A stretch of 49,135 nt of DNA from a virus. Location: positions 1 through 49,135 of the IMG/VR virus record IMGVR_UViG_3300042445_002263; one strand, given 5' to 3'. Of this stretch, positions 19,712-47,170 are shown piece by piece. Made by a program: the position numbers and the translations under genes. The notes under the pieces are model-generated. The model was not told the origin of the DNA. It did no database searches and saw nothing but the letters and a program-made list of their open reading frames with translations. How positions within the stretch are numbered: the stretch's first letter is position 1; the number at the start of each line of letters is the position of its first letter.

Positions 19712-20206
19712 TTAAGGAACATCGTTGATATGTTGGTCGAATTCTAATATTTCTTTAGTTGCTTCAGCTGTTTCATATTTAGCCAATAAATCACCATAAT
19801 GACCTACTGCTTTTCTTTGTATTTCTAAAAATTGCAATAAAAATTGTCCTACAACGCAATCTTCATCTTCTGCCTTTTTGTAAAACTCTTTATATTTATT
19901 ATAAACTTCAAGCTCCATTTCATATCCTATTTCTAAAGATTCACCAATAGTCTTTACTTTATCTTTAATAGCTTCAATTGAAGGCATTTCGGCGCAATCA
20001 CCCATGTCATTTTGGAATTCAACATGCATTTGATAATGCGTTAATTCTTCAGCGCTTTCTGTTAAAAAATATTTTTGTGTACCAAAGAAGCCATATTGTT
20101 GCATTTGGTTAGCCAAAGCTTTCCAAAGATTAGATTGATATAACTCTAGATATAACGCCTCTTGCAAGACGCTTTTCATACTTTTAGATAATAAGGATTT
20201 TACCAT
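19712..20206 (-). CDS. Ferritin-like diiron protein
   Basis: A 164-residue protein with the four-helix pattern of ferritin. YLELYQSNLW (Glu21), SAEELTH (Glu54, His57) and GYEMELEV (Glu98) line up with the E. coli FtnA ferroxidase residues Glu17, Glu50, His53 and Glu94. Both spacings are the same as in FtnA (33 residues from first to second Glu, 41 from His to the next Glu). The fourth helix has FLLQFLEIQRK, where Glu128/Gln130 may correspond to FtnA Glu126/Gln127. Length is close to the family's usual 165. Ferritins oxidise Fe(II) and store it in a 24-subunit shell. It sits between portal and scaffold genes, an odd place for metabolism, so a virion or DNA-protection role is possible. Diiron site certain by pattern; role unknown. 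Confidence 0.85.
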   Translation of the reverse strand: MVKSLLSKSMKSVLQEALYLELYQSNLWKALANQMQQYGFFGTQKYFLTESAEELTHYQMHVEFQNDMGDCAEMPSIEAIKDKVKTIGESLEIGYEMELEVYNKYKEFYKKAEDEDCVVGQFLLQFLEIQRKAVGHYGDLLAKYETAEATKEILEFDQHINDVP

Positions 20207-20207
20207 T

Positions 20208-22574
20208 TTATTTTGTTTTCATTGTTTGTACTTGTTTCCTGTCGCTTACCGCTATTCTAGCGTCTGCTGCTATTCTTTGAGCGATAACTTTTGCTTCTTT
20301 TTGTATTTCAGCTTCTTGAATATCTTTATCCTTCTTACCCATTTGAATAATATATTCCCATTGTTTTTCAGCATTAATTTTAGCTATATCTGCATTTAAT
20401 TGGTCTTGCAATGTGATACGTTTTTCTTGCTCTGCTGCTTGAGTCGCCATTACATTACCTTGAGAAGCCTCTCTTACCTTTTGCAATTCAAACTCTTGCA
20501 TCTTCTCTCTACGCTTCTTAATCTTATACGCAAGTATCATTGATGCCATTTTTAAATTACGGCAACTCATTACAAGTATTTTATCTTCCGGCTCAATTAA
20601 TCCTTGAGAATCTCTAATATTTAATTCTTGTATTAATTGTTGTCTTTCGTAATCAGACGGGCTATCTTCAATAAATATACCAAATTCATGAATAGATATA
20701 TTAGGATTGATTTGGAAAAACTTAACAGTTTCCGTACCTAATGCTCTACCATAACCTTCTACCTTACCTAATTTAACAGCTATTTGTACTTTTGCAACAA
20801 TAGCGTCTGCAACATTTTGCACTAATTGTTTGTCTGCAAAACTTAATAAGTATAAAGCATTATTAGTACTTTCCATTGCAGCATTTGCAACTGGAACTAA
20901 TGTTTTTGAATTAGGAGTAGAGCCATCGGTCAATTCATTTAATCCTGATATTTGACGCATCATATCAATAGTGTTTTGCAACTCTTGATACAATTGACCA
21001 AATACAGCTAATTGACCTGAAGCTTCAATGCTTACTGGCTTGTAGTTTGGATTTTGACTTAATAAATCAGTTGAACGATAAGGTACAACAAAATTAGAAA
21101 ATATAAAATCCATAACCTTTGTTGGGTTCATCTTATCTCCACCACCTCCAAAATCAACACCTTCTAATGCGTTTAAATCTATATTTATTAAATACGGAAT
21201 TAATTTATTAGACATATTTTGAAGCCTGAACCAAGCTAAACACGCTTTATCTTCTAACGGAATTAATCTTTCTGTAATACCTGCAAAACGCATCTTATAG
21301 AAATTCCATGAGTATAATTGGATGTTTAATTTTGTATCCCACCAAGACGAAGGTTGTCTAATTTGATTTTCAGACATACCCCAATCATACATATAATCAG
21401 TTTGAATTAACCATTTACACTTATAAACAACCTTTTTAGTAACAGGCATATATACAGGCTCGGCTTGTCCTTTGCTCTTTGAGTCAACTAAACTAGGTAC
21501 AGAACCTGCGTAGTCAAACTTTTCAATCGTTCCCTTCTCATTGACCGCCAAATCCATCTTGCTTGAATCCTGATACTTTGTTTTACCAAAGCGAGCATTA
21601 CCTCTGTTATCTATTTCTTCTTTATAAGTGTAATCATTCCATGATAGGAATTCAAAATCTAAAATAAGCACCTTAAAACGATTCCAATACTTTGAATAGT
21701 CTGTGCCATACATAAAGTTAGATGGGTTACCAAAGCGTCCGGCTACAGATTGAACTATCAAATTTAATTGGTCGGGGGAAAAATAAGGTGCCAAGTCCCC
21801 TACATATACTTCTCTAACTTCTCCGAAATGTACTAAATCGGAAAAGTCATTTTTTGCGCAATATGATAATACTAAATTTTCAGGATTAACCTCTCTTACA
21901 TTCACCGCACCATTCTCATCTATATATTCAGTATATCCACCAATACCAAAATCAAATAAATTTTCAATAGTTCTTTTTCTTTTCTCGTCAAATTTATTTT
22001 TATACATCGTCAAAGCGATAGCACATTCTGCTTCCATTGCCATAACATGTTTGTAACCAAATTGTTGCTCCATTAACAACTGCTCCATATCTTCAGGCTC
22101 ACCTTCCATTGGTTTCAAAACAGGGCTATTAGCCAATTCTTCATTACCTGCCTTTATTGCAGCCTCACGCATCATCACTTTAACTTTCATTTCATTAAAG
22201 CGCTCGTCTTCTTCACTTTTAGCTAAAGGGTCAACTGCAAATGCTTGCAAATCATAACGCCTTTGAACAAGTTTTGAAATAGCTATCTCTCTATACTTTG
22301 TTAAAAATGATGGTGGAGTCCAATCCGTATTAAGCCATGTCTTATCTGTTTGCTCATCTACATTTAAAAGTTTTTTATACTTTGTAGTGCTTTGTCTTCC
22401 TAATGCATACTCTCTTATTTCATTCATTTTAGACTGACCAAAGTTCAACATATTATTCGGCACATAACCACGGGAATCACCCCATGCCGCTTTGCAATAT
22501 TGAAGTATCCAGTCATATCCTTTTTCCCTTGGGTCAATCTGTTGATTAGGGTATGTATTTGTAGCTTGTTGCAT
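20208..22574 (-). CDS. Portal protein
   Basis: A 788-residue protein. Portals form the 12-subunit ring through which DNA enters the head. Supporting features are its length, its location before scaffold and capsid, a helical N-terminal half, RKRTIENLFDFGIGGYTEYID, and the long helix at about 540-600 beginning QLYQELQNTIDMMRQISGLNEL, which fits the stem/crown helix of portals. After this comes LVPVANAAMESTNNALYLLS. The C-terminal 110 residues are a charged helix (KKRREKMQEFELQKVREASQ; EAEIQKEAKVIAQRI). It starts from its own promoter, two bases separate it from the ferritin-like gene, and its sequence resembles portals of large short-tailed Bacteroidota phages. Confidence 0.8.
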   Translation of the reverse strand: MQQATNTYPNQQIDPREKGYDWILQYCKAAWGDSRGYVPNNMLNFGQSKMNEIREYALGRQSTTKYKKLLNVDEQTDKTWLNTDWTPPSFLTKYREIAISKLVQRRYDLQAFAVDPLAKSEEDERFNEMKVKVMMREAAIKAGNEELANSPVLKPMEGEPEDMEQLLMEQQFGYKHVMAMEAECAIALTMYKNKFDEKRKRTIENLFDFGIGGYTEYIDENGAVNVREVNPENLVLSYCAKNDFSDLVHFGEVREVYVGDLAPYFSPDQLNLIVQSVAGRFGNPSNFMYGTDYSKYWNRFKVLILDFEFLSWNDYTYKEEIDNRGNARFGKTKYQDSSKMDLAVNEKGTIEKFDYAGSVPSLVDSKSKGQAEPVYMPVTKKVVYKCKWLIQTDYMYDWGMSENQIRQPSSWWDTKLNIQLYSWNFYKMRFAGITERLIPLEDKACLAWFRLQNMSNKLIPYLINIDLNALEGVDFGGGGDKMNPTKVMDFIFSNFVVPYRSTDLLSQNPNYKPVSIEASGQLAVFGQLYQELQNTIDMMRQISGLNELTDGSTPNSKTLVPVANAAMESTNNALYLLSFADKQLVQNVADAIVAKVQIAVKLGKVEGYGRALGTETVKFFQINPNISIHEFGIFIEDSPSDYERQQLIQELNIRDSQGLIEPEDKILVMSCRNLKMASMILAYKIKKRREKMQEFELQKVREASQGNVMATQAAEQEKRITLQDQLNADIAKINAEKQWEYIIQMGKKDKDIQEAEIQKEAKVIAQRIAADARIAVSDRKQVQTMKTK

Positions 22575-22595: not shown

Positions 22596-22628
22596 CAAAA
22601 TTAATTAAAAGTAAATAAAAAAAACAAA
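22596..22628 (-). promoter_or_regulatory. Bacteroidota-type promoter for the head module
   Basis: On the minus strand TTTG (22625-22628), a 21-base A/T-only-like spacer and TAATTTTG (22596-22603) fit the TTTG-N19-21-TAnnTTTG pattern. The portal ATG is 21 bases downstream. It lies just after the last gene of the glycan cassette, so head genes can be transcribed independently of it. Confidence 0.6.
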
Positions 22629-22647: not shown

Positions 22648-23193
22648 TTAATATAATTCTCTTCCTATCAAAAGGTCATCGTAATTCATTTCCATTTTTG
22701 TATTATAGGAAAATCCATTGTGCTGAATTGCTATAAAAGGGCTAGATACATAATACTTTCCAAGACCTGCCAATGCCCTGTCAATGTGAGCATCATCCGG
22801 TAAGGATAAGTAAGTTTCATAGAATTTTTTATTTACAATGTAGCAATGAAATCCGGAAAACTCTTTTACTGAATTATCCTTTAAAATCTCTCCTAAATAA
22901 ATACCACTTAAATATACATCAAAATCTTCAGGTTTATGCTCTAAAAAATAAGAAAAACTATTTTTGTTAGTAAAACGAACATCGTCTTCCATTATGCATA
23001 TTTCAGGCAAATTATTATCTAAAGCATACCTGACGCATTGTTTGTGTGCTAAATTTATAGCTTTCTTAACCGAATGACTATCATGAACTGCCGGAAAAAA
23101 TTTAAAATCTCTTATGCCTTGAGTCTTAAATTCCTGCATTAACATATCAAATCTAGTAGCTGAATCAAAATTATGGATTACTGCTATTTGCAT
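22648..23193 (-). CDS. GT25-like glycosyltransferase (short)
   Basis: A 181-residue protein starting MQIAVIHNFDSATRFDMLMQEF. LPEICIMEDDVRFTNKNSF contains the EDD acidic motif of GT25-type enzymes (LPS galactosyltransferase-like, GT-A fold), followed by FHCYIVNKKFYE and DAHIDRAL. GT25 enzymes transfer a sugar, often galactose, from a nucleotide donor. It is somewhat shorter than usual for the family (about 200-250). It is the last gene of the cassette, its start overlapping the exostosin-like gene by 23 bases. Donor and acceptor cannot be read from sequence. Confidence 0.7.
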   Translation of the reverse strand: MQIAVIHNFDSATRFDMLMQEFKTQGIRDFKFFPAVHDSHSVKKAINLAHKQCVRYALDNNLPEICIMEDDVRFTNKNSFSYFLEHKPEDFDVYLSGIYLGEILKDNSVKEFSGFHCYIVNKKFYETYLSLPDDAHIDRALAGLGKYYVSSPFIAIQHNGFSYNTKMEMNYDDLLIGRELY

Positions 23194-23989
23194 TTAGAAT
23201 GTTTTTAATCTTGTTAAAAGCCCCTTCGTATGTATAATATTCATTGTATATCTCCTTGATTTTTAACTGCTTATCTACTATCTGTAAATCAGTGTAGCTT
23301 TTTAAAATTTCCTCTATTTTAATTGAATCCTTTTCTTCTATTATAATTCCATAGTCTTCAAAATTAGCATCAAAGCAACTAATAAATTCATCTGAAATAT
23401 ATACAGGGATGGTTTCGTATTGCATACATTCTGCTATTCTAAAACTATTCAATCCATACCCCCTTGGACATAATCCGAATAATGAATGAGAGATTATATC
23501 GCAAAATGATTGTATGTCATGCTGCTTATCGGAAATATAAAAATCCTTATTCTGTATGTTAAATACATTTTCCCTAATTGGATGCGTATGTGTACCAATA
23601 AATGATGCAAATATTGACTTGCTATGATTCCACTCGTATGAATGTGGCTTACACAATAAAGGAATTTCAACCCCCGTCTTCTTGCTCATACTGAAAACTA
23701 AAATATCTAAATCTTTAAAATCAGTCATTACCCCGTCATCATATTGGCAAATAGTCCAATATTTTAAATCTTTAGGCAACTTATCTACATAGTCTTGTAA
23801 TTGCTTTCTTGCTACAGGATTATTACCATAATTATTATTTACATGATATGCTGTCCATTGAATTGGAAGGTAATGCCTTTCAGTGTTTGGGATATGCTCG
23901 TGTGAAACCCAATCTTCAAATATAATATCATTTTCCCAAGGATATATTGTATTTATTGTTGGAGTAAATTCTTCTGGTATGTGTATCAT
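23171..23989 (-). CDS. Exostosin-like glycosyltransferase (GT47 type)
   Basis: A 272-residue protein. The C-terminal half carries the exostosin-type signature SLFGLCPRGYGLNSFRIAECMQYETIPVYISD, in which the conserved glutamate contacts the nucleotide-sugar. The N-terminal half has an ICQYDDG and HSKSIFASFIGTHTHPIRENV, also typical of the fold. Family members transfer diverse sugars (xylose, galactose, glucuronate). There is no membrane anchor, so it is cytoplasmic. It overlaps the FkbM-type gene upstream by four bases and the GT25-like gene downstream by 23, which indicates translational coupling. Confidence 0.75.
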   Translation of the reverse strand: MIHIPEEFTPTINTIYPWENDIIFEDWVSHEHIPNTERHYLPIQWTAYHVNNNYGNNPVARKQLQDYVDKLPKDLKYWTICQYDDGVMTDFKDLDILVFSMSKKTGVEIPLLCKPHSYEWNHSKSIFASFIGTHTHPIRENVFNIQNKDFYISDKQHDIQSFCDIISHSLFGLCPRGYGLNSFRIAECMQYETIPVYISDEFISCFDANFEDYGIIIEEKDSIKIEEILKSYTDLQIVDKQLKIKEIYNEYYTYEGAFNKIKNILNANSSNP

Positions 23990-24621
23990 ATTTTGTATTT
24001 ACGGATATATAATGCATCTGTCCACGTTTCGGCTACCCACTCCCCCGTTTCAACTCTTTCAAATCCTCTTTGCAACATGAAATAATCAAGCTCCTCTATC
24101 AACATGCACCCCTTATACGTTTCTTTCATATTCACCTCAAGCAATGCGTAGTCAATATTTTTAATCAAATCGCCCATCCCTTCTATTGCTAAATGCTCCG
24201 CACCTTGTAAGTCTACATTCAGAAAATTAATAGTAGATACATCTACATCTTTTAGCAATGTATCTACCCTTTGCGTTTTCATAGCTATTTGCTCTATATA
24301 ATGCACTTCCGGATGAATCAATGCATGAACTCCTAATTCTAAAATTGATGAACTTTGACTTTCATTATTTGATACATTGAATACAACTTCATCGCCATCC
24401 ACATTACTCAAGCAAGCATTATATGCTGTTTGTTGTGGGTATGGTTTTATATTATGCTGGAGGTCTAAATAAACTTTAGGTATAGCCTCTACCCATATAA
24501 CTTTCCCCTTGCAATAATTGTCATAGGCATCTCTTTCCTGTCCGGTAGAAGCTCCTAAATGCAACACCCCGTTTATATCTAACTTATGCTTGTTGACTAA
24601 ATAGTCAAATGAAATCATCAT
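23986..24621 (-). CDS. FkbM-family methyltransferase
   Basis: A 211-residue protein. Residues about 17-50 (NGVLHLGASTGQERDAYDNY; VIWVEAIPKVY) form the SAM-binding Rossmann start with the acidic residue that holds the ribose. NNESQSSSIL, VDTLLKD, INFLNVDLQGAEHLAIEGM and YALLEVN are the usual FkbM motifs. Members O-methylate sugars and polyketides, so it probably caps a sugar hydroxyl made by the neighbouring transferases. It overlaps the epimerase-like gene by four bases. Confidence 0.85.
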   Translation of the reverse strand: MMISFDYLVNKHKLDINGVLHLGASTGQERDAYDNYCKGKVIWVEAIPKVYLDLQHNIKPYPQQTAYNACLSNVDGDEVVFNVSNNESQSSSILELGVHALIHPEVHYIEQIAMKTQRVDTLLKDVDVSTINFLNVDLQGAEHLAIEGMGDLIKNIDYALLEVNMKETYKGCMLIEELDYFMLQRGFERVETGEWVAETWTDALYIRKYKI

Positions 24622-25625
24622 ATACTTGCGTTTTTATTAACTTGATTATCTATCCAAACATATAAATTTTCTAACCCTGTTTTTAAAGGCTTTGATGGTC
24701 GCCACCCTAAAACTTCTTGTATTAACTCATTATTTGAATTTCTTCCTCTTACGCCTATTGCGTTAGATTCTATATTTTTAATTTTTATATTTTTACCCGA
24801 AATGCTAATTACTAATTTAGCTAAATCGTTAATAGATATAATTTCATCAGAACCAATATTAACTGGTTTTCTATAATCAGATTCAAGCAATCTCATCACA
24901 CCTTCTATACATTCATCTATATATAAAAAAGACCTTGTTTGTAAACCATCTCCCCATATTTCTATTTCCCCTCCATCTTTAGTTTCGCATACTTTTCTAG
25001 TAACAGCGGCTGGAGCTTTTTCTTTACCACCAATCCATGTACCATCTTCTCCAAATATATTATGAAATCTAGCTATTCTTATATCAAGACCATAATTTCT
25101 ATGAAAAGAATCAAATAGTATTTCGCTAAATATCTTTTCCCATCCATACGGGCTATCTGGGTTAGCTGGGAAACAATCGCTTTCTTTTAAACCTTTGTTA
25201 TCTGTAGACTCTTGTATTTCTTGCGGATATGCGCAAGCGCTTGATGAAAAGAATAATTTTTTAACGCCACATTTGGAAGCATAAAATGCAATATTTAAAT
25301 TTACCAATGCAGAGTTATGCATAACATTTGCATCATTATCTCCTGAAAAAATATACCCTGCACCCCCCATATCCGCCGCCATTTGAATTACTAAATCAAA
25401 TGCATTATCCTTATCTAATAAATTATGTTGTTTAGGCGACCATAAAACCCTGCTAACTAATTGCTCATCTCTTAAATCCCCAGCGATAAATTCATCTGCT
25501 TTTGTTTCAGAATGTTCTGGGTATTTCAAATCTACGCCTCTAACCCAATAACCATCTTTTTTTAATCTTTTAACCATATGGCTACCTATAAATCCACCTG
25601 CGCCACAAACTAAAGCTGTTTTCAT
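24618..25625 (-). CDS. GDP-mannose 3,5-epimerase-like extended SDR
   Basis: A 335-residue protein, the right length for an extended short-chain dehydrogenase. GAGGFIGSH (8-16) binds NAD. Cys131 in SSSACAYP, Tyr160-x3-Lys164, and Lys203 in GGKEKAPAA match the catalytic residues of plant GDP-mannose 3,5-epimerase (GME). MAADMGGAGYI, FHNIFGEDGTWIGG, EIWGDGLQTRSFLYIDECIEGV and VRGRNSNNEL also follow GME closely. GME converts GDP-D-mannose to GDP-L-galactose (and some GDP-L-gulose). The product could feed the GT11 enzyme two genes upstream. A related NDP-sugar epimerase is possible, but the double lysine and GTW loop favour GME. It is the only sugar-nucleotide enzyme in the cassette; GDP-mannose must come from the host. 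Confidence 0.85.
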   Translation of the reverse strand: MKTALVCGAGGFIGSHMVKRLKKDGYWVRGVDLKYPEHSETKADEFIAGDLRDEQLVSRVLWSPKQHNLLDKDNAFDLVIQMAADMGGAGYIFSGDNDANVMHNSALVNLNIAFYASKCGVKKLFFSSSACAYPQEIQESTDNKGLKESDCFPANPDSPYGWEKIFSEILFDSFHRNYGLDIRIARFHNIFGEDGTWIGGKEKAPAAVTRKVCETKDGGEIEIWGDGLQTRSFLYIDECIEGVMRLLESDYRKPVNIGSDEIISINDLAKLVISISGKNIKIKNIESNAIGVRGRNSNNELIQEVLGWRPSKPLKTGLENLYVWIDNQVNKNASI

Positions 25626-25627
25626 AA

Positions 25628-26215
25628 TTATTTATTTAATTTTAAATACCATTGTTTCTTAAACCACCATAATCCCCAATTATTCAAAGTATCTTCTGAA
25701 TGTAAAATATCTTCGGGATTAAAAGTTTGCCCATCTAATTCATCTCTTAAAAAAACTTTAGGAACTACTTCGTCAACCGCTCTCATTACTTCAGGAGCAT
25801 TGTAATCATGCCCTGCTAATATGTTTTCATCTTTTACCTTTGGATACCAAGCTCTTATTTCTTTTTTAGTTTCCTCGTAAGTATGTGACGAATCAATGTA
25901 ACAAAAATCAAGATAACCATCATTAAATAATTTTACAGCCTCTAAACTTTCAAATGGAACTACTTCAATAAACTCCCCTAATCCGCTTTTTATAATGTTT
26001 TGGTAGATAGTTTTCATTTGCAAATAACCACCATAATCCATATTATCAACCATATACAGCTTAAACTTTTTACCAAGTCGGTTTATCTCTTGTGCTAAAT
26101 AAATGGCACTATCGCCATTAGCAACACCAACTTCACAAACTTTGCAATCGTCAGGAAGCTCTTTTGCAATTCCTTGGTAGAAATGCTGAAAATCAAACAT
26201 AATTAATTCACTCAT
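25628..26215 (-). CDS. Class I SAM-dependent methyltransferase
   Basis: I chose the ATG at 26215 (195 residues, MSELIMFDFQHFY). It overlaps the TGA of the GT11 gene as ATGA, the usual coupling in this cassette; a start four codons earlier, at 26227, is possible. VCEVGVANGDSAIYLAQEI is motif I, LYMVDNMDYGGY places the SAM-ribose acid, and LDFCYIDSSHTYEETKKEIRAWYPKV is typical of the Methyltransf_24 group that modifies sugars and surface polysaccharides. AGHDYNAPEVMRAVDEV follows. It lies between a fucosyltransferase-like enzyme and the epimerase; the product is likely a methylated sugar. Confidence 0.8.
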   Translation of the reverse strand: MSELIMFDFQHFYQGIAKELPDDCKVCEVGVANGDSAIYLAQEINRLGKKFKLYMVDNMDYGGYLQMKTIYQNIIKSGLGEFIEVVPFESLEAVKLFNDGYLDFCYIDSSHTYEETKKEIRAWYPKVKDENILAGHDYNAPEVMRAVDEVVPKVFLRDELDGQTFNPEDILHSEDTLNNWGLWWFKKQWYLKLNK

Positions 26216-26949
26216 AATTTTATCCATTCAGGTTTTACAATATCGCTTGTATCTAATCCGCACCATCCTTCGCTAAACCAAAATTGCGGGAATATTACTT
26301 TTTTATTTTTGTTTCTGTTTAAATAAGCTCCCCACCAACTAAATGTAGACGGGCTACATATTTGATGCTCACACCAACTCATTTCTATTAAATCACTTTG
26401 TTCATCTGTGTTTCCAGAGTATTCGCAATCATTTCTATGGGCAAACTTTTTTTGACACCAAGCTATATCATCTGAAAAAAACTTAAATTTATAATCAGGA
26501 AACATAGCCATTGCCTTCTCGTACCATTCTACCGTTACCTCTGGATGCTTTTGTCTTAATTCAACATAATCCCCTCTTCTTACATGACAAGCAACAACAC
26601 CTACATTTGGTGTGTGTTTAAAATTCAAAAGATACAATACTTCACTTCTGTATTCATCAAAATATTTTGCAGTTTGTCGGTATCCTTCTACAATAATATT
26701 TTTATCTCTCCAAGATTCTTCAAATGGCAGCTCCTCGTAAGAGTGTTTACCTTCCCATAATTGTATTTTCTCTAAACTTGGATTATATGTATTATCAATT
26801 AAATGATGACAATAAATAGGACTCCATTTTGGATTGCTTGTTTCTAATGGGACTGTAAATTCTAAATCATGTTTTATAGCATAAGCTATGGCTGTCGCAC
26901 ATTCAAATAAAAAATTACCCATTCTCCCTGCGTTTGTAAAAGATACCAT
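26212..26949 (-). CDS. GT11 alpha-1,2-fucosyltransferase-like enzyme
   Basis: A 245-residue protein. GRMGNFLFE (8-16) corresponds to the GGLGNQLFQ start of GT11. CHVRRGDY (121-128) is the HxRRGDY GDP-binding motif. FKFFSDDIAWC and STFSWWGAYLNRNKNKKVIFPQFWF are the remaining family motifs, so the enzyme looks intact though shorter than many (about 280-300). GT11 enzymes transfer L-fucose from GDP-fucose to the 2-position of galactose. GDP-L-galactose is the 6-hydroxy analogue of GDP-L-fucose and would be supplied by the nearby GME-like protein. Cytoplasmic, no anchor. Confidence 0.85.
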   Translation of the reverse strand: MVSFTNAGRMGNFLFECATAIAYAIKHDLEFTVPLETSNPKWSPIYCHHLIDNTYNPSLEKIQLWEGKHSYEELPFEESWRDKNIIVEGYRQTAKYFDEYRSEVLYLLNFKHTPNVGVVACHVRRGDYVELRQKHPEVTVEWYEKAMAMFPDYKFKFFSDDIAWCQKKFAHRNDCEYSGNTDEQSDLIEMSWCEHQICSPSTFSWWGAYLNRNKNKKVIFPQFWFSEGWCGLDTSDIVKPEWIKL

Positions 26950-26966
26950 AAGTAAAATTAATTAAT

Positions 26967-27662
26967 TTAATTTAATTTCCTAATCTTTTCTATTAATATT
27001 TCTCTAAAATCACCTGTTCTTTGAACATTATTTATATAGTGAGATTGATTGTGAACTAAATGCTCATACCTTAACCCGTGAACAATATGAATATACTTAC
27101 CTGACATTAGCCAATTATAATTTTGGAATAAGCTATCACTTGTTACGGGGTCTGTTGTAGCATCCCAAACATCACAATAAGCATTTTTGTTTACAAAATA
27201 ATTCATACAATTTAAGCAAGTTTCAAACATTGGCTTATCTATATATTCTTTTAAGTTGTCTTTGCTGACTATTAAATTTGAATACTCTGTATAATTAAAT
27301 GTTGGTTTTGCCCAATCTGGAGCTAAAATCATATCTTCCGCCCATTCTTGTTCAAAAATCTTATCAAGATATAGTGTATCTATTTGATTATCAGAGTCTA
27401 ATATAATGCAATAGTTGGTAGGGGATAAGCTAATAGAAACATACTTATTAGCATAACAATCTCTATTAGTCAAATTTCTATATAATTTAACTTTAGATAA
27501 TTTATCGCACTCTTCTTTTAATTTGTTATAAATATGCTCATCGCTTGCATCATCTACGATAACAATAGCTTCTACCCTATCATCATTGTAAACTTCCTTA
27601 AAACTATTTAATGTCATTTCTACTCTATTCCAAGTAGGTATGCAGATTGATAATGTTCTCAT
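26967..27662 (-). CDS. GT2-like glycosyltransferase
   Basis: A 231-residue protein with a GT-A fold. RTLSICIPTWNRVEMTLNSF and EAIVIVDDASD are the nucleotide-binding start, and YCIILDSDNQID holds the DxD metal site. The second half is compact, with SDSLFQNYNWLMSGKYIHIV and HGLRYEHLVHNQSHY. No transmembrane segment, so it is not a processive or polymerising type. It overlaps the GT25 gene by four bases. Substrate unknown. Confidence 0.85.
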   Translation of the reverse strand: MRTLSICIPTWNRVEMTLNSFKEVYNDDRVEAIVIVDDASDEHIYNKLKEECDKLSKVKLYRNLTNRDCYANKYVSISLSPTNYCIILDSDNQIDTLYLDKIFEQEWAEDMILAPDWAKPTFNYTEYSNLIVSKDNLKEYIDKPMFETCLNCMNYFVNKNAYCDVWDATTDPVTSDSLFQNYNWLMSGKYIHIVHGLRYEHLVHNQSHYINNVQRTGDFREILIEKIRKLN

Positions 27663-28285
27663 GGTTGTATTTCTCCTAGTTTTTGATAATATCTATTTTC
27701 TATGAATGGTCGCCAGTCTATAAATTGACCGCCTATATCAGACATCCCTTCTTTCTGTGTGCAAAGTAACGGATATGTTATGTAAGTCTGTCCGATTGGT
27801 TGAATTTTTTCTACTATGCAATTATCTATTGGAGCATATAAGCCTTGCGCCAATATCTCTTTCATCCCCTGCAATGACAAAGCCCATGCGTGGGTTGCAA
27901 AAGCCTTCTCTACTCGTAATAAATTAGGGGAAGTTCTGGCTCTAAAACCACCAGTAACTTGCGCTCCTAATAGTAATATATGCCAAGCTTCGGGTAGTTG
28001 TTTTACTACCTTTTCCATTGTTTCATTAGGATTGCCACACGATTCAACAAACATTGCGTCATCTTCAAAAATCAATACCGAATCCCATTTGTTTTCAATT
28101 GCCTTTTCAAAAATACCCTGCACCGTAAGGCGTAATCCTTCTGCTCCCTTTTCATGCTTAATAGCATTAACTAACTCATATGGGATACCCCACTTATCTA
28201 ACTCGCCCGCTATGTCTAATAATCTATCAGTCCTTTCGGGTAAATTTATAACGAATATTTTCGTAAAAAAGTCTGTCCAAGCCAT
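27659..28285 (-). CDS. GT25 glycosyltransferase (LPS-type)
   Basis: A 208-residue protein. KIFVINLPERTDRLLDIAGEL is the classic GT25 start, SVLIFEDDAMFVE the acidic motif, and FATHAWALSLQGMKEIL the downstream helix. GT25 enzymes add galactose or related sugars to lipooligosaccharide, and in animals to collagen hydroxylysine. It is the first gene of the cassette: its ATG shares the last base of the TerL stop (TAATG), which ties cassette translation to the packaging gene. Confidence 0.85.
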   Translation of the reverse strand: MAWTDFFTKIFVINLPERTDRLLDIAGELDKWGIPYELVNAIKHEKGAEGLRLTVQGIFEKAIENKWDSVLIFEDDAMFVESCGNPNETMEKVVKQLPEAWHILLLGAQVTGGFRARTSPNLLRVEKAFATHAWALSLQGMKEILAQGLYAPIDNCIVEKIQPIGQTYITYPLLCTQKEGMSDIGGQFIDWRPFIENRYYQKLGEIQP

Positions 28286-30333
28286 TATGCTATTTTTGTT
28301 TGTTTAAAAAAGTCTGTTATCTTAATTCTATCTTCTGACTTCTTGAAAATTGCTCGTTTAAAATAGTCAGCAACAAGCGTCCATCCTCCTCCCATTACAA
28401 GGTCACTTACTTCGGTTTCATTCACATTGAATTTAAGAAGCCCATCGTACTTGTCATCTATTAATTCCGGATATATTAATTTACCTTCCTTGCCATGCGT
28501 TAATATATACTGCTCCCATAGGTTTACCATAAGTGCTTTATTATCAGCATTAGGGTCAATACCATAATTTGCTTTATCGGGCAATCTCATTAGAAAAGCT
28601 TCGCAGTTATTATCTATAAAAAACTTACGCAAGCCGCCATCCATTTTAGCCTCTATCAATATCTGTCCGCCATAAGCAAAGCATTGTAAAACCATATCCA
28701 TATGGAATAACTCTACCATTCTAGGTCTTGCGTGATACTTGCTAACAAACATCATGTTATATACAGGGTCATTGTTGCCTATGTCATATCTATTTAGTAC
28801 CAAGCTTGTGGCTTTAGAACCTTCGCCATATTCCACAACTGAATTCTGAAAAGGGTCACATCCCATAATAAATTGAACAGGATTTTTAGGTAAAAACAAA
28901 GACCCCCTAGTTATGTATGTTTCACCTTCAGGTCGCTTAAAGTTTTTGGCTATAGTCCATCTACCATTTTCTTTTGTCGTAGGATGCCATTCAGCCTCTG
29001 TAAAAGGCTTGCCATCTTTCCACATCCAATTGCCATATTCCAATACTTCCTTTTCGTTTATTTTAGATATTTCATACAAATCGTTAAGTAATACAGCATC
29101 AAAATGACAATTATTATTCCGAAGCATAAACATCTCCCTTTCATCAAAAGGGTTCATCCTTATCTCTTCCTCTAATTGTACGCTTTCTAAAATCTTTCTT
29201 TTTTCTTTTAAATATTCTTTTGCGCCTAATTTAATATCTTCTTCATTAAGGTCACCTGCGCCTACATAATTATCAACTAAAAATTTATATTGCTCTTCGT
29301 TTGGCGGGTCAATGACACTCATCCCGTATCTATCTATAAAACCCAAGTACCCGTCATAAGCCGGAGAAAAATATTTAGCAAGTCTATTAGGAGTTTTTGA
29401 GTATTTAGTATGGTCTGCGTTATCCCAAACAATCTTAAATTCTTCTCCTCCACTAGTCATTGAATTGGATGTTGATGGACATTCTATAAATCCTACCCTT
29501 TTAGCACCCTTTACAAGTGTCTTGCTTACAATTGATATAAATGTCGAGAATGGGTTTTCTTTTGCCCATTTTCCGCCTTCGTCAAACAATCCACGACTTA
29601 ACCTTCCGGAGTCATAAGAGTTCAAGGAAGGCGCTCTATAATCGATTTTAGACCTATGTCCGGTATCTGTGTCAATTGTACTTCCTTTTCCACCTTTTAC
29701 CTCTACAGACTTATGCGCAAATACAAGTTCACTTACGCTGTCTTTGTTGTTTAATTGCTTTGGTTTTAAGAACACGGGCAACTGCCTGTATCCAAAAGAA
29801 ATCATATTTGTAAATGCAGCTTTGGCATCTATCTGCGTTTTGCTTGTTAATCCGCAAAAGCTATTTTTATAGAAGATACACTCATAAACGATATTTGATG
29901 TCGCCTGCGAGGTTGCACCCTCTCTACGCTTTTTACCTCTAACAACACCTAGACACCAAGGAGTCTTTTCCCAATGGTCTAGAAACAAAAAATAACGCCT
30001 ATCTGCATCCCTGAAATCACCATAAATATCATCCTCTAGCTTCCACCATTGAAGATAAAAATAGTGTTTACCTGTAAGAAAAGTTGGCACTCCATTATTA
30101 TAAAACCAAAACCCTTTTCTACATCTATCTACCTCTCTTGCTGCAAAATCAGATTGCTCTAAATCCAATAGCGCATTACCTTCTTTATCGTATTCTACCG
30201 ATTCAAAAAATTTAGGCAATTCTTTTCTTCTCCAATACTGCTCATTAGCAATATCAGTTCCCCAATTTTCAACCTCATCAGGGACGGGAGGTAGATTAAT
30301 TTCTACCCCGTATATTTTTATTTTATCAAACAT
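28285..30333 (-). CDS. terL: Terminase large subunit
   Basis: A 682-residue protein. ATPase: VRGKKRREGATSQATS (about 131-146) is the Walker A-like loop of Bacteroidota phage terminases, GLFDEGGK (249-255, Asp251/Glu252) is Walker B with the catalytic Glu, and FIECPSTS (about 282-289) is the coupling motif. Nuclease: FIMGCDPFQ (Asp493) and ILIEAKMDG (Glu561) are the first acidic residues of the RNase-H-like domain. It pumps DNA into the head through the portal and cuts it. Its start shares one base with the stop of the 103-residue gene, and its stop is coupled to the glycan cassette. Confidence 0.92.
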   Translation of the reverse strand: MFDKIKIYGVEINLPPVPDEVENWGTDIANEQYWRRKELPKFFESVEYDKEGNALLDLEQSDFAAREVDRCRKGFWFYNNGVPTFLTGKHYFYLQWWKLEDDIYGDFRDADRRYFLFLDHWEKTPWCLGVVRGKKRREGATSQATSNIVYECIFYKNSFCGLTSKTQIDAKAAFTNMISFGYRQLPVFLKPKQLNNKDSVSELVFAHKSVEVKGGKGSTIDTDTGHRSKIDYRAPSLNSYDSGRLSRGLFDEGGKWAKENPFSTFISIVSKTLVKGAKRVGFIECPSTSNSMTSGGEEFKIVWDNADHTKYSKTPNRLAKYFSPAYDGYLGFIDRYGMSVIDPPNEEQYKFLVDNYVGAGDLNEEDIKLGAKEYLKEKRKILESVQLEEEIRMNPFDEREMFMLRNNNCHFDAVLLNDLYEISKINEKEVLEYGNWMWKDGKPFTEAEWHPTTKENGRWTIAKNFKRPEGETYITRGSLFLPKNPVQFIMGCDPFQNSVVEYGEGSKATSLVLNRYDIGNNDPVYNMMFVSKYHARPRMVELFHMDMVLQCFAYGGQILIEAKMDGGLRKFFIDNNCEAFLMRLPDKANYGIDPNADNKALMVNLWEQYILTHGKEGKLIYPELIDDKYDGLLKFNVNETEVSDLVMGGGWTLVADYFKRAIFKKSEDRIKITDFFKQTKIA

Positions 30334-30644
30334 TATTTTCTTGACTCTGCTATAGTTTCAACAAATGGTTTTTTGACTATATCTTTCTGCTCATCTCCGG
30401 TAACACCAGCCGAAATTCCCAACTCTTTTATAGCTGCGGAAATACTAGCGCTGTCGTTCCAGATAACTTTTAGTCTTTCAAATGTTTTGTCTTTAGGGTC
30501 ATCAAGTAACAAATTGCTTATATTGGTTTTATTCAATAAATCAGCCATCTCATTCGCCTTCCTATTTAAAGCGTAAAATAATTTGGCTGCGCCATTTTGT
30601 TCATAAAGTGAAAGTTTGTGTTTTAGTTCTTCTAGTGTTTCCAT
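30333..30644 (-). CDS. Candidate small terminase subunit
   Basis: A 103-residue, mostly helical, charged protein (METLEELKHKLSLYEQNGAAKLFYALNRKANEMADLL; ERLKVIWNDSASISAAIKELGI). It sits immediately before TerL with a one-base overlap (TAATG), where small terminase subunits usually lie. I see no clear helix-turn-helix, so the assignment rests on size, helical content and position only. Confidence 0.5.
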   Translation of the reverse strand: METLEELKHKLSLYEQNGAAKLFYALNRKANEMADLLNKTNISNLLLDDPKDKTFERLKVIWNDSASISAAIKELGISAGVTGDEQKDIVKKPFVETIAESRK

Positions 30645-30657: not shown

Positions 30658-33600
30658 TTATTTTTCCTCGTCCTCTTCTTCGTTATTTGAATTAAATTTT
30701 GATTTAGATTGTGTTGTTGCTTGCCTTTTTGCTTTTATAATAGCTGCTGTAATTTCTTCAGGTGTTGACTGTGTAATAGGCACATATTTTTCTGCCCTAC
30801 TATCATATATACCTTCTTGGTATAATTTGGTAATTTTTTCTTCAATTAATTTATCACGCATTTCGGCATATTCCTTAAACTCTTTCATGGTCATCCCTTT
30901 CTTAATTGTTTCAGGATTTACATCATCACTATTTTTAGCTCTTTCTATAATTTCTTCCATAGGCTTCATATTCTTATCAGAATAATAACTACCAAAACCT
31001 ATTCCCAAAATATTTGGCATTAACACAGTTAATAAAGAAACCATCCCATCTTCTTTAAATGCATTGTAAACATCATCTGCATACATAGGATATATTTTGA
31101 CTATTTCCATTGGGTCAAAATCTTCACCTATTGTATTCTTACCAACAAATGCATTTACTCCATAAGACCAGTTTGGAGCTAATTTATTTCTAAAAAATCT
31201 AACAGCACTGCTCAAAGCAAAATCACGAGATTTAGCAGTTTCAAAATTGCTTTTATTTTTATTAGCTGCATTAACTCCATATTCAAGTATTCTTAAAAAT
31301 GTTCTAATATACGAAGCTTGTCCAGCAGTAAAGTCATACACTTTCTTGCCAAACCTAACTTGTAAAAATTCAGGGTCATCAGGGTCCATTGATACAGCAC
31401 CGCCTGCTGCTGCCAAAGCTAATGTTGACATAATTACAGTAGAAGTATATGCTGCCATATCTTTCATTGCCATCTTCCTTACTTCTGGAGGCATTTTTGC
31501 ATAGTAAACTGGATTTAAAGTATTAAAATTTGCTGCCATCAATCTAGCACCATAAAATATAGACCCCGCCGCTCGCTTTCCTTCAGGTGTTTCTAAAATC
31601 TTTAACATATTTCCACTACCGGTACTATTCATTACAAATTTAGCCATTGCCTCATATTCTTTAGGGTCACTTTCTCTTGTAATGCCTCTACTTAATAAAA
31701 ATTTCTTATTTTTTTGATAAAGCTCATATCGGGCGACATTCATAGAAGCATCAGCTATTCTTTGAGATGCAATCATTATATTTCTAATAATAGGTATTTT
31801 ATAAACAATATTTTGAGGGTTTGTAAATTCATTTGTATTTTTAGAATCAATTGCATTTAATTCATTAAATCTAATACCATCTTTCACCATTTCTTTATAA
31901 TCAGGTGATTGCTCTATTCCATACATTAATCTATCATAATTCTTTTGACTAAATATGGATTGAGAGCCTGCATATATGAATTTTGAAGCAATATCCCACT
32001 TTGTAGGATTTAATGTCAATTTTGCTAATTGTCTAAACCAAATAGAAGCATCAATAGAAGTTTGAACTATTCTCCTTATTCCCATTGTATTTTCTACAAA
32101 ATCCCATGCTTTTTGCCACCATTTCAAGTTTCTTTTTTGCTCATTATATCTTTCTACAGCAAGTGCTTTTTCAAGCTCAATGACTTTATCCATTTTTTGC
32201 TTTGTCTTTTTAGACATTGTATATTTAGGAGTCTCTTTTGCTTGTTTATCGTAATTCTTATTTTTTAAATCACTTTCTAATTGTTCAATTTTTTTATCTA
32301 AAAATTTTTGTCTTTTATCATTATATTCAGTATCTGTTAAACTTTCTTTAAAAGCTTCGCTAACTCCTTCTTCTTCTAATTGTTTAACCTTATACAACCT
32401 CTTTACCTCTTTTATTTTATCTTCTAATTCTTTAATCCTTTGTCCTTTTTCTTGAATTTGAGCTTCAGATTTAGCTGCCTCTTGACCAAGTCTTGCTTTT
32501 TCAAGTAAACCTAATAATTCAGCTTCTCTGCGCAACATTCTAATACCTGCACTTATATCGTTAGCTGTTTTCTTTTTAAGATTGTATTTACCTGCAATCA
32601 CATCTAATACATCTCTTTTTGTTAATCCTTCAATTAGTCCAGAAAATTCTTTATGAACTTCGGTAACAATATCATCTAATTTAGAAACACCTTCAGCAAA
32701 TAAACTTTTAACATATTTATTCATATGAGGAGCTACTGCAAATAATTGAGGCAACCCCGGCGCAGAAGCCATTAATCCGCCACCACCTTTATTAACTTTT
32801 TTTACGGCTTCTTTTGCAGCAGCTAATGCATCTTTTCTTTCTTTTACAAATTCTTCGTGAGATTTTTTAGCTTTTGTTTTACCCTCTTCTTTTAATTCCA
32901 TTTCAACTGATGCTGCCAATTGTTCTATAATATCATTAGCAGCAGATTCTTGTAGTTGTTCCTTTGCTTCTTGTATTTTTTCAAATCTAGCAGTTTCTTC
33001 TATCATCATTTTAGGAGTCAATGGATATCCCTTATCTTCTTGTCTACTTAATAAAAAGTTTGATAATGTGTTAGCTTCGTTAAGCTTTTTTATTATTTTT
33101 AAACTTTCTAATGCCTTACCAGTTTGAGATGCACTTTGTTGAAATATATCAGCAAATTCAGTAATCTTGGCTAATAATTCTGCTGAAGGATTATTTTTTA
33201 ATTCCAAATCTAATGCAGCTCTATATTCAGCCATAAATGCATTTTCGTAATTAGTTAAAATCTTTCCTAATTTTATTTTATCATACAAAGATTCAACGCT
33301 TACGCCTTTTTTAATCATCTCTTGAGCTGCCTCTCTTAACATTTCATGAGTTTCAAGAGGTAATCCTTTGTATGGTGGAAGCCCAAGACTTTTTCTTAAT
33401 TCACCTATATCTGCTGCTGTTATTCTAACATAATCCACATCACCATTATCCAATCCTACATTTTCAATTTCTTCTGGGATTTCCGTAGTACTTTCGGGCT
33501 GTGTTGCTTCTGTGCCTGCACCCTCTTCGGTAGTTGTTTCCCCTTCGACTCTTGGTTCCATTCGTTTACGTCCACCCCCTGATTCTCCATCTTCTCCTTG

Positions 33601-36600
33601 TTTTGGTTGAAGTATTTTCTCTGTGCTTCGCTCTTGTACGGCATCTTTTATATTTTTAAATGTTGGTAAATCAAATTCTGACTTTGCGATTTCAATTAAA
33701 TCCTGTTCTGTAAAATCAAGTTCATCTATCGCTTTTTTATCTTCTTCATTTTTTAAATTATCCTTTATGAAATTCTTTTTATTTTTAAAGCTTTTTATTC
33801 CTTTTAGCTTATCAACTGCTGCTACTTGTTCTTCTTGACTAACAATATCTGCAACTACTTTTTTAGAAAATTCATCTAATGTCATATTAGATATTTGTTC
33901 AGCATTCATATTTTTAATTCCAAAATGAATTGCAATTGTATCCCATAAATCTTTTAACCATTGTTTAAAATCAGCTTTTTGTGCAGCAGTTACAAATTTT
34001 TCTCCATTATCACCTATAGCTTTTGCAAGAGCTTCTGATTTAAAATAATTTTCTCTTTCTGATTCAGGCAATTTAGATGCATTTTCTTGGTAAACTGGAT
34101 TATTCTTAACATTGGAAAGATATTTAGAACCTTCTATTTTAGCCATCCCAGCATCATGCAAATCTTCTCTATTTTCTTTAGCCCAACTTAACCATAAATG
34201 ACCTGCTTCATGGAATGGAGTATTACCATTCATTACATCAGCATTTAATACAATTTTGCCATTTTGCTCAAAACCATAAATCGTTCCTGTAGCATCTGTC
34301 ATCATATTAACACCACTAGGATGTTCAGAAGCTGGTTTAACAACTCCTTTAGCCATCCCAATTTGATTACTACCAAATTTGCCCGCACCTCCCTTTTTAT
34401 CTACAGCATTGTTATTTGCATCATTTAATATATCTGTAACGTGTTGAGATTCTTTTAATACATTTAATACCGGTTTAACTTTATTGCCATTTTCATCAAA
34501 TTGTTGCAAATGAAATGGATAACTTTCATGACCTTCTTCTTTACCACTTAAATCAACAACTTTTACTGGATGTTTTATTTCAATAGTTGCATATGCTTCA
34601 CTATTTTTTACTCCAACGGTCATGTTGTCTGATAATAAATGACCAATAGCATCAATTATACCTTCTTTAGCAAAACTAATCTCTCCTGTTTTTCTTTCTG
34701 TTGATTGTGGTAAAGCTTCAGTATTAAGTAATTCTCTTATTTTACCAATATTCTCCTTGGCGCTTTTGCTATTTTTAGCTAAATGGTCAATAACATCTTG
34801 TACAAAAAAACCTCTTTTTGAAAATGTAGAATCATTTACACCAAAGAATTTTTTAGATATATCATCGTGAATAGCTTTAGCATCTAATCTACCATCAAAA
34901 TCTATATTATATTTTTTACCAACTTCAGTTAATGCTTTTCTAAAATCAGATAAAGAAACTAATTTTTTATCTACAAAATATTCTAAAACTTTCATTGCAG
35001 CTTTAGCACCTGTATGAGATGTTAAAGATTTTGATAAATCCCCTTTTGTAACAACAACATGAATTGTACCATTTCCACCAGCATCGATGTCCTTTTGTCT
35101 TGCTTCATTTATATATTTAGCCAAAGTATTAGCTGTAGCATTATCGGAAGATGCCCATACATCACCAAATTTAGTAACAAAGTTTATACCACCATTACCA
35201 TCTACAATCGGTTTACCATTTTTTGTAATAACTTCTCCCGTAAGCATATTATCAGGATTGATAACTACTACTGGTTTTCCTTCTAATCCTTTTATGTCAA
35301 AATTTAATTTAACAGTACCATCATCAATTAATTTTTTCCATTGAGGTGATTCTTCAAATCCTTTTTTCTCAAACCCGCCCCAAGATTGCAAATTAGCCCC
35401 ACCTGTTTTAATAGCATCTTCTAATGCTTTTGCAAAGTTTTTACCCTTTAATACACTTATTTTAGCTTTATCACTTAATTTTTGAATACCCTTTCTTATT
35501 TTATCAACTATAGGATTATATACCTCTTTTGGTATTTCAACAGGTTTTGTTTCTTCAGCTACTTCAGTTGGTTTATAAGCCAATAATTGGTCAGGAGTGT
35601 AACTCCTTAACATTTCAACAGAAGTGACTTCTACAGGTTCTTCATCTTGTTCTGTTACTGCAAATATTCTTTCTCCATTACTACGTCTTCTTTCAGCTTC
35701 TAATGTGCTTCCTATTGGTTCACCTTTTTCTTCTAAATCAAGTGGTATTTCTACTACTTCAACTGGCTCAACTTCTTCTTTTACTTCAACAACTGGTTCA
35801 ACAACTGGTTCAACATTTTCTGTTGGTTGCATGGGTTCTTCAACAACTGTTGTTTCTACTTCTGCTTTAGGCTCATTTTTACTTTTTTCTTTCAAGTTTA
35901 TTTGATAAGCTATATCTTCAGCTATACTTCCCTTAAATGTTCTTTTTTTACCATCAGCTGTTTCTAGATTAACGGAAACTATATTTCCATTTTCATCCTT
36001 ATTAATTGCTTTTAATGGATTTGAGTATCTGTTTATATAAGGCTTTTGTCTTACATTTATATTCCCTTTATCGTCAACTGAAACCAAAGACTCATCGTAT
36101 TTAACATCAAATTCAGATGCTGGTTTCTCTTGTATTTCAGATGCTTTGCCTATTTCATATTTTTCTCCTGAAGTCTCGTTCTCAAATACAATGCTATCCC
36201 CATCCTGCAAGAAAGTTCCTTTTTGTCCTTTGTATGTACCTTTTTTATCTACAACTTCACCTATTGTAATATCTTTTTCTACTGGCGGATTTATAGCCTC
36301 TATAAAAGATGCTTCTGTACCCATTTCATCTTCAGCAATTTCTCCTGTTTCCTTGTACTGTTGCGCTCTCTTGTATAAATCAGGTAGGTAATTAGGGTCG
36401 CTATCTATTTTCTTATTAAATTCTTCAAATGTATCAGGAAAATCAAATTCTGGATTATTTGATTTAACACCATATAATATATCAAATTGCTCTACTCTTT
36501 TGCGTCTATTTTCATCAACAGGAGCTTTCTTTCTGCTATCTTCTTTCTTAATTGCTTTAGCTAAATCATAACGAGCTTGACTTATTTGAGTTTTATCTCC

Positions 36601-44972: not shown

Positions 44973-45614
44973 CTAATTAATTTTTTGTGTTGCTGAACTA
45001 TAATTGTTAACTATACCCGTTTCAGGAATGACTGTAGCAAATTTAGCAAACGCTTTCTCTACAATTTCTTCTTCCATACTTGCAGGTATTGGTAATGGGT
45101 CAGTGTTTGAGTACAATGATATATCCATTACAATCAAATACATATTCACCGTATCAATGCCAAGCAATAAAATATCTTTTGAAAAAATAACAATGTTTTT
45201 TCTTATTTCAAACCAAACGTTTCCCAACAAATCGTTCAATAACTTATCAGCCCTCAACAATGCTCCTTGCCCTAATGGGACAGGAATAAAATCATTATCT
45301 TTATCGTCTGTAACTCTATAAACACCCATATTTCTTGGTAAAGAAATTGGAATAATTGGTAGTTCGGCTTGCGATTTATCGCCAAGAGTTGTTACAGGTA
45401 TATTTTCATAAAAAGCTATCATTAAATTATCTGGAATAGTTTCTCCTGTTGGCAATGTAGCATTGTAATACTGCATTTGAAACATAGAGTTGATAATTTG
45501 TTCTATCGCTTTAACTATATCTACATTTTGTACAGGTTGACTTGCATCCCTGAATCCGCCGGCTAGTCGGGTTTGTACTTGTTCAGCCAAAAGGTATTTA
45601 GTGCTATTAGCCAT
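44973..45614 (-). CDS. Hypothetical neck/ring structural protein
   Basis: A 213-residue protein. The helical first 40 residues (STKYLLAEQVQTRLAGGFRDASQ) are followed by a beta-rich middle (IPVTTLGDKSQAELPIIPISLPRNMGVYRVTD) and a helical end (MEEEIVEKAFAKFATVI). The function is not readable from motifs. The same length as its upstream neighbour, but I see no clear similarity between them. Placed in the run of small structural genes before the tail hub, it is probably a head-tail connector ring. Confidence 0.55.
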   Translation of the reverse strand: MANSTKYLLAEQVQTRLAGGFRDASQPVQNVDIVKAIEQIINSMFQMQYYNATLPTGETIPDNLMIAFYENIPVTTLGDKSQAELPIIPISLPRNMGVYRVTDDKDNDFIPVPLGQGALLRADKLLNDLLGNVWFEIRKNIVIFSKDILLLGIDTVNMYLIVMDISLYSNTDPLPIPASMEEEIVEKAFAKFATVIPETGIVNNYSSATQKIN

Positions 45615-45616
45615 TT

Positions 45617-46258: not shown

Positions 46259-46259
46259 A

Positions 46260-47108: not shown

Positions 47109-47134
47109 AAAATTAGACTTTTTTATTTATTAAA

Positions 47135-47170
47135 AATTAAAATGCCCCCAAAAATTTTGAAGGCACTTTT
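47135..47170 (-). terminator. Rho-independent terminator after groES
   Basis: On the minus strand AAGTGCCTTC pairs with GGGGGCATTT (some G-U pairs) around an A/T loop and is followed by TTTAATTTTTAAT. It separates the early/replication transcript from the tail genes. Confidence 0.65.

Follow-up and report, generated by a model that had tools for sequence, protein, structure and literature searches.

The virus record IMGVR_UViG_3300042445_002263 of IMG/VR, positions 1 to 49,135, is a stretch of 49,135 bases that is referred to here as the window. Between its genes for the terminase large subunit (TerL) and the portal protein lies a block of eight open reading frames (ORFs) on the minus strand, at 22648-28285. 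This glycan cassette comprises two GT25 glycosyltransferases, one each of GT2, GT11 and GT47, a GDP-mannose 3,5-epimerase (GME) and two methyltransferases, every gene scoring above its Pfam gathering score. Homologous cassettes recur near the head genes of unrelated phages, and it is this recurrence that is new here. The minus-strand order runs from a gene at the position of the terminase small subunit (TerS) through TerL, the eight-gene block, the portal gene, a ferritin-like gene and a scaffold-like gene to the major capsid protein. The cassette and its borders are listed below, with Pfam bit scores set against gathering scores and protein lengths in amino acids (aa).

28285-30333, minus strand: TerL, the upstream flank (phrog_6681, E 1.8e-74)
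27659-28285, minus strand: GT25a, glycosyltransferase family 25, 208 aa (37.2 against 24; EDD motif at residue 74)
26967-27662, minus strand: GT2, glycosyltransferase family 2, 231 aa (39.3 against 23.3; DSD motif, of the DXD type)
26212-26949, minus strand: GT11, alpha-1,2-fucosyltransferase-type, 245 aa (79.2 against 23.9; HVRRGDY motif)
25628-26227, minus strand: MT24, class I methyltransferase, 199 aa (Methyltransf_24, 61.5 against 26.3)
24618-25625, minus strand: GDP-mannose 3,5-epimerase-like protein, 335 aa (Epimerase, 132.1 against 20.9)
23986-24621, minus strand: FkbM-type methyltransferase, 211 aa (Methyltransf_21, 58.6 against 22.7)
23171-23989, minus strand: GT47, exostosin-type glycosyltransferase, 272 aa (41.8 against 33.4)
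22648-23193, minus strand: GT25b, glycosyltransferase family 25, 181 aa (29.9 against 24; EDD motif at residue 69)
22596-22628, minus strand: promoter motif TTTG-N21-TAATTTTG, ahead of the portal operon (boxes and spacing kept in 28 of 29 sequences)
20208-22574, minus strand: portal protein, the downstream flank (phrog_6547, E 3.2e-67)

An original prediction, made by a model from the letters of the window, had described eight ORFs of these families, nearly all overlapping, with the first sharing a base with the TerL stop. All eight are present over their Pfam cut-offs. Of the eight joints between TerL and the end of the cassette, six are overlaps (of 1, 4, 16, 4, 4 and 23 nucleotides, nt) and the other two are gaps of 17 and 2 nt; the GT25a start and the TerL stop have base 28285 in common. 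A gap of 73 nt separates the last cassette gene from the portal gene. The description of the block as a complete sugar-making set was too strong, as it holds a single donor-making enzyme, the GME. In G+C content the eight genes range over 29-38%, around the 33.9% of the window, with no clear sign of foreign origin, and no membrane segment is predicted in the eight proteins, whose highest Kyte-Doolittle 19-mer value is 1.08.

The same prediction gave the portal and head genes a promoter of their own at 22596-22628, and this has held up through conservation. A TTTG-N21-TAnnTTTG motif, which we take to be the -33/-7 promoter type of Bacteroidota, begins 19-22 nt past the GT25b stop in 28 of 29 sequences (the window and 28 contigs). 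Its spacer letters have diverged in the third of the sub-clades described below, and it is absent from contig L031. Genes inserted ahead of the portal gene, of the kinds seen in L008, L013, L016 and L059, sit downstream of the motif. Strict matches in the window are at chance by number (4 against 4.9 expected), so support comes from conservation and from the gap itself, where the chance of the motif, modelled on the gap's own composition, is 0.4%. A sigma-70-type scan of the window was at chance level (40 found, 51.6 expected). The motif fits a Bacteroidota host.

Enzymes of the cassette

The label 'GME-like' given by the original prediction is borne out: the best solved relative of the epimerase is the plant GDP-mannose 3,5-epimerase 2C59 (2.7e-88), against 7.6e-25 for the next family. 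Residues C131, Y160, K164 and K203, which we take to be the counterparts of the catalytic residues C145, Y174, K178 and K217 of Arabidopsis GME, are kept in 12 of 12 aligned homologues. In a second allele group, represented by L016, the GME match is 9.7e-75 against 2.7e-19 for the next family; both groups thus have GME as their best match, and both retain the Cys, Tyr and Lys positions. From this likeness the enzyme is predicted to convert GDP-D-mannose to GDP-L-galactose or GDP-L-gulose.

The HVRRGDY sequence of GT11 follows HxRRxDY, presumably the motif of the family; no solved structural relative of this protein was found. GT11 enzymes use GDP-fucose, and GDP-L-galactose is its 6-hydroxy analogue, so the product of the GME is the predicted donor for GT11. 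MT24 and the FkbM protein are both predicted to be sugar O-methyltransferases.

GT2 has a weak PHROG match to GtrB-like O-antigen conversion proteins (6.3e-5). Among the matches listed, its best cellular relative (profile, genome contigs) is 32% identical over most of the protein, and short local cellular matches reach 40%. Neither these listed matches nor G+C content gives a clear signal of recent pick-up from a bacterial lipopolysaccharide (LPS) locus.

A profile from both GT25 proteins matches COLGALT1 at 2e-7 and mimivirus R655 at 1e-5. GT25b, the weakest family match of the eight, was also modelled, with a predicted local distance difference test score (pLDDT) of 77.5. The model's best fold match in the PDB has an E value of 9.2e-9 and a template-modelling (TM) score of 0.60, the top folds being a GT25 beta-1,4-galactosyltransferase and mimivirus R655, with COLGALT1, the collagen galactosyltransferase, lower. 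It also resembles viral models of GT25 proteins, and suggests that GT25b folds as a GT25 enzyme. The GT47 profile matches EXT1/EXT2 at 6e-7; a GT47 structure model (mean pLDDT 44) was too poor and was not used.

Conservation, exchange and recurrence of the cassette

Among GenBank phages, 87 records match TerL and 87 match the portal protein. They are phages of Flavobacterium, Cellulophaga, Tenacibaculum and Maribacter, and one more, at 24-29% identity among the matches listed; the nearest named ones have Flavobacteriaceae as hosts. In the two records opened, the portal gene directly adjoins that for TerL. The closer relatives are in IMG/VR, where 34 contigs, some partial, have both TerL and portal; this set excludes loci that hold just one of these genes, as well as any second locus from a contig already counted. 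The cassette lies between the two genes in 28 of the 34: in all 28 contigs whose TerL is at least 63% identical to that of the window, and in none of the six at 54% or less. Some of the 28, and L030 and L033 among the six, look near-identical and are not independent. Because other contigs carry the block at this junction, its position is not an assembly error, a danger that the original prediction had raised together with the comparison of relatives that settles it.

All eight ORFs have at least 0.96 of the window length in 26 of the 28 contigs. The exceptions are L062, with a short epimerase (0.89 of the window length), and L031, which lacks the epimerase and keeps the other seven genes at 30-59% identity. 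In L031, TerL appears as two ORFs that overlap, one of 500 aa and one of 149 aa (L031:726-2674). Three additional contigs, L159, L209 and L211, have the same gene order. FkbM was found in none of the six cassette-less kin. Two kin without the window cassette have other glycan sets elsewhere, both on the TerL strand. That of G030 (L111:9809-16396) contains a GDP-mannose 4,6-dehydratase (GMD) and lies at the edge of a block matching window 44973-47577, while G029 (L106:11880-16940) has an epimerase, a DUF5672-GT9 protein, a methyltransferase and a GT2 ahead of TerS. Extra cassette members include a second FkbM methyltransferase (L019:15716-16279) and a sulfotransferase (L171:8228-8905).

The ratio of nonsynonymous to synonymous substitution rates (dN/dS), from gapped alignments within sub-clades, is mostly 0.01-0.14 for cassette genes, compared with 0.02-0.04 in TerL and 0.01-0.07 in portal. 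Values are higher for GT2 between the window and L016 (0.44), for GT11 (0.21 and 0.17), for MT24 (0.22 and 0.18) and for epimerases compared across their two allele groups (0.25-0.34). The epimerase of a cassette comes from one or the other group; within a sub-clade the groups are 58-65% identical, and each of three sub-clades contains both:

sub-clade 1: window, L002, L004-L006, L014, L015, L018-L020 against L007, L016, L023
sub-clade 2: L011, L021 against L008-L010, L012, L013, L017, L022, L025
sub-clade 3: L056, L059, L065, L070 against L062

Between the window and L016, TerL, MT24 and portal are 99% and FkbM 97% identical, against 59% for the epimerase, which indicates, on sequence comparison, that a single gene is replaced. 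The exchange between L008 and L011 (TerL 98%, epimerase 61%) may extend further, because the adjoining FkbM also diverges (84%). Between L008 and L022, MT24 alone differs, at 69% (TerL 94%, epimerase 91%).

Profile searches of IMG/VR gave 46 loci with GT47 and 54 with GT2, many of them the window clade again. ORFs were mapped for the loci outside the clade and some inside it, and selected neighbours were identified by PHROGs, their relatives by BLAST. Homologous GT2-GT11-FkbM(-MT24-GME-GT47-GT25) blocks are present in structurally unrelated phages. Among ten structural backgrounds, as defined by the analyst, six have the cassette on the same strand as head or packaging genes and inside them or at most 2.3 kb away, and in three of these (A, C and D) such genes stand on both sides:

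A, window clade: TerL, cassette, portal
A2, L213, a 134-kb contig: cassette 1.1 kb before TerL (phrog_6681) and portal (phrog_6547)
B, L164, L217, L228, L229: cassette 1.5-2.3 kb after TerL (phrog_2 in L164; TerLs of the other three 43-46% identical to it)
C, 12 contigs, L215, L216, L218-L227: head maturation protease, two small genes, cassette, portal (protease phrog_94 and portal phrog_11226 in L222)
D, L171, L172: cassette 1.1-2 kb after a head protein (phrog_771 virion structural, phrog_264 major head)
F, L169: cassette 1.9 kb after a TerL of phrog_5653
E, L165, L166, L167, L173: not fitting; in L173 a portal (phrog_7376, 8e-8) lies 1.7 kb off on the opposite strand
A3, L212, a window relative: not fitting; cassette at the edge of an unannotated block matching window 44973-47577
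G, L174: not fitting; cassette beside tail fibre genes
H, L161: not fitting; no neighbours identified

The order in background C is seen in seven of seven contigs with both flanks, of which L220 and L221 are near-identical, and five one-flank contigs agree. In L171 of background D, genes for a structural protein (phrog_302, 3e-4) and for a tail-completion/Neck1 protein (phrog_5) come after the cassette. If head genes made up 20%, 30% or 40% of a genome, six of ten would have a binomial probability of 0.006, 0.05 or 0.17, figures that are not relied on because the backgrounds are few, not fully independent and analyst-defined. Among GenBank phages, from which records very near the window may be omitted, GT2 and GT25b have no match. 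GT47 matches four records, divided equally between cyanophage S-SKS1 and an uncultured phage, and GME matches 37 at E of 1e-25 or less, all Synechococcus, Prochlorococcus or marine viruses. Searches of the open-licence literature found no description of this cassette or of its recurrence near head genes.

The genes of the cassette also tend to co-vary. Identity matrices of cassette genes are correlated in Mantel tests (r 0.32-0.88; p of 0.025 or less in 14 of 15 pairs, the exception being MT24 with the epimerase at p 0.058), rows L008, L221 and L229 and proteins of at least 420 aa being left out. L217 and L223, of different backgrounds, have epimerases 76% identical. In 31 tabulated loci, several of them fragments, GT11 is found in 29, GT2 in 28 and FkbM in 25, and GME, MT24, GT47 and GT25 are variably present; no epimerase was found in the cassettes of L031, L164, L171, L172 and L173. 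HNH-like genes, called by similarity to the HNH protein of the window or by eye, occupy the TerL-portal junction in place of the cassette in L024 and L027, and are found within the cassette or at its end in L008, L012, L016, L059, L062, L159 and L031, making them a plausible entry route.

A tentative suggestion, to which we give rather less than an even chance, is that the block is a portable 'virion serotype island', a phage counterpart of bacterial O-antigen islands. It would pass between unrelated tailed phages with a GT2/GT11/FkbM core and exchangeable GME, MT24, GT47 and GT25, prefer endonuclease-prone junctions of the head and packaging operon, and alter the sugar coat by swaps of single genes (epimerase, methyltransferases).

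What the cassette may modify

The primary paper on virion glycosylation in mycobacteriophages is Freeman 2023. In mycobacteriophages Che8, Rita and those of cluster O, glycosyltransferases and an O-methyltransferase are described, with sugars on capsid and tail tube (PMC11256854, PMC11600133), and virion glycosylation is also treated in PMC13313380 and PMC10955285. As in the window, glycosyltransferase and methyltransferase genes lie in the phage genome. The genes of Maravista, a Che8 relative, are placed near the genome's 3' end, however, whereas the window set lies between TerL and portal; the available portions name no GME, GT11 or GT47, and the glycan of the window is a predicted one.

The original prediction took a single glycosyltransferase as the known state in phages. 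This understates the case, since cluster O mycobacteriophages have three, together with an O-methyltransferase, for which capsid and tail tube are the reported targets (PMC11600133), and the T4-like cyanophage S-SCSM1 has a large cluster with a GME and several glycosyltransferases (PMC9602691). S-SCSM1 also has, like the window, an alpha-1,2-fucosyltransferase and methyltransferases. In the group of T4-like cyanophages to which S-SCSM1, S-CAM9 and S-SKS1 belong, the GME is 51-56% identical to that of the window among the 30 of 37 matches listed, and S-SKS1 has a GT47 relative (33% identical). These phages belong to an unrelated family, and in the three records opened the GME cluster lies by nrd, tRNA or high-light (hli) genes and not, as in the window, by head genes; in S-SCSM1 a tail-lysozyme gene is 1.7 kb from it. 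Cellulophaga phage phi18:1, a Bacteroidota phage, has like the window a glycosyltransferase, gp41, inside its structural module, kept in the genus; it is a single gene, and the available part of the report names no accompanying epimerase or methyltransferase (PMC11946311). In the algal virus PBCV-1, eight putative, mostly soluble glycosyltransferases are virus-coded and expressed early, several act on the major capsid protein, the exostosin-annotated A075L is accompanied by methyl capping through A064R and A061L, and capsid-glycan mutants define antigenic classes (PMC9614988). Its likeness to the window, an exostosin-type transferase with methyltransferases, is one of description, and its genes are early ones. 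Gtr serotype-conversion operons, in which phage genes likewise alter a surface glycan, differ in another way. Their flippase and polytopic membrane proteins have no equivalent among the eight cassette proteins, the highest 19-residue hydropathy value being 1.08.

We consider it somewhat better than an even chance that the cassette serves glycosylation and O-methyl capping of the phage's own virion proteins. The GME would convert host GDP-mannose to GDP-L-galactose (or L-gulose), and GT11 would transfer this L-sugar, a fucose analogue. The remainder of a short oligosaccharide would be assembled from host nucleotide sugars by GT2, GT47 and the GT25 pair, and the two methyltransferases would cap it with O-methyl groups. 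Since no membrane segment is predicted in any of the eight, the enzymes would work in the cytoplasm, their synthesis going along with that of TerL and slightly preceding that of portal and capsid. Their acceptors would be structural proteins of capsid or tail, before or during assembly, with particle shielding or surface variation as the benefit. Virion proteins are the likeliest acceptor because such cassettes recur near head genes, the genes form a coherent set and there are precedents for capsid glycosylation; the sugar, the order of transfer, the late timing, the acceptor and the benefit are all points that we infer. The original prediction had the cassette working late, on the virion: co-orientation with and overlap of TerL, the conserved portal promoter motif and head-gene placement in six of ten backgrounds agree with this, lateness itself staying an inference. 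Its proposal that early-only expression would refute the virion as target does not stand, because the PBCV-1 enzymes are made early and yet several act on capsid protein (PMC9614988).

Several points weigh against virion glycosylation. The evidence is of genes, and glycan, transcription and acceptor are predictions from them. Four of ten backgrounds (E, A3, G and H) do not fit head-gene placement, and L213, type B and L169 have a head gene identified on one side only, with genes without identification between. The Mantel matrices include kin within one background, so part of the correlation is plain descent. The three cyanophage clusters adjoin nrd, tRNA or hli rather than head genes. LPS-core glycosyltransferases are also soluble, so the absence of membrane proteins is compatible with a host target. 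Collagen-like tail fibres, an idea that came from the likeness of GT25 to collagen galactosyltransferase, failed as acceptors. Tail proteins of the window (5931-7841 and 11095-14436, minus strand) do carry GTSGSSG, collagen-like repeats whose total length varies among kin. G026, however, has the cassette and a homologous tail protein (1343 aa, read to the contig end) without a run of eight G-X-Y units, and G033 has G-X-Y runs without a cassette between TerL and portal. Further cassette contigs without a repeat match may simply end too early.

An alternative target is the surface of the host cell. Late in infection the cassette would alter the LPS core, capsule or O-antigen there, which would keep new virions from binding again to the lysing cell or its remains and would shut out other phages. 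GT25, GT11, GME and FkbM also act as surface-polysaccharide enzymes, and the weak GtrB-like match of GT2 points the same way. The authors of the S-SCSM1 study read that GME cluster as one of cell-wall synthesis and modification (PMC9602691). The lack of any membrane segment in the eight proteins tells against such a role, as does the repeated placement by head genes, for which it offers no obvious reason, and we regard it as a less likely but real possibility. If homing endonucleases had brought the block to the junction of TerL and portal, where it persisted by chance and mainly as a passenger, this would account for the HNH-like genes that replace the cassette in two contigs and lie in or beside it in seven; but near-full-length ORFs in 26 of 28 contigs, low dN/dS and the seven genes kept in L031 make this improbable.

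Even less probable is an auxiliary metabolic role, such as diverting GDP-mannose, the GME substrate, from host polysaccharide synthesis: five glycosyltransferases and two methyltransferases would not be needed for it, and five of the cassettes, as noted, have no epimerase that was found. Glycosylation of a hypermodified base in phage DNA, as a defence against restriction, hardly merits any credence. Glycosyltransferases of phages can act on DNA, but to our knowledge GT11, GT47, GT25 and sugar methyltransferases are not among the known DNA-glycosylation families. Moreover, in the 70-kb relative G014, 26 proteins from beyond the TerS-to-tail block, chosen among ORFs at least about 100 aa long, gave no match to a base-modifying family, and one matched the anti-restriction protein ArdC.

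If the virion reading is right, environmental phages would have in particle glycosylation a trait that recurs and spreads horizontally, and a coat that can be changed by single-gene steps. Within the literature searched, sugar-coated particles are documented for few phages. The cassette offers a testable set, in which an epimerase with a predictable product is joined by a fucosyltransferase-type partner, with head proteins as candidate acceptors.

Other features of the window

1355-4156, plus strand: 933-aa protein with GT4 and GT9 domains (domain matches), outside the cassette, beside tail genes
30658-38286, minus strand: 2542-aa protein, no Pfam match
30333-30644, minus strand: TerS-position gene, 103 aa; no PHROG match, TerS being expected at that spot
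19712-20206, minus strand: ferritin-like gene after portal, in the head operon (PF00210, 6.6e-15)
between the ferritin-like gene and the major capsid protein, minus strand: scaffold-like gene, the analyst's label; no match
after the scaffold-like gene, minus strand: major capsid protein (SU10_MCP)

The 933-aa protein, which the original prediction overlooked, has relatives 58-97% identical in G003, G005, G014, G018 and G021, and could possibly be a further member of the pathway. The ferritin-like gene is 72-99% identical, where in reach, in contigs with TerL at least 79% identical, and 53% identical in L159; L031 has no match, and G028 has a relative 27% identical ahead of TerS. The counterpart of the 2542-aa protein in G014 is 3718 aa long.

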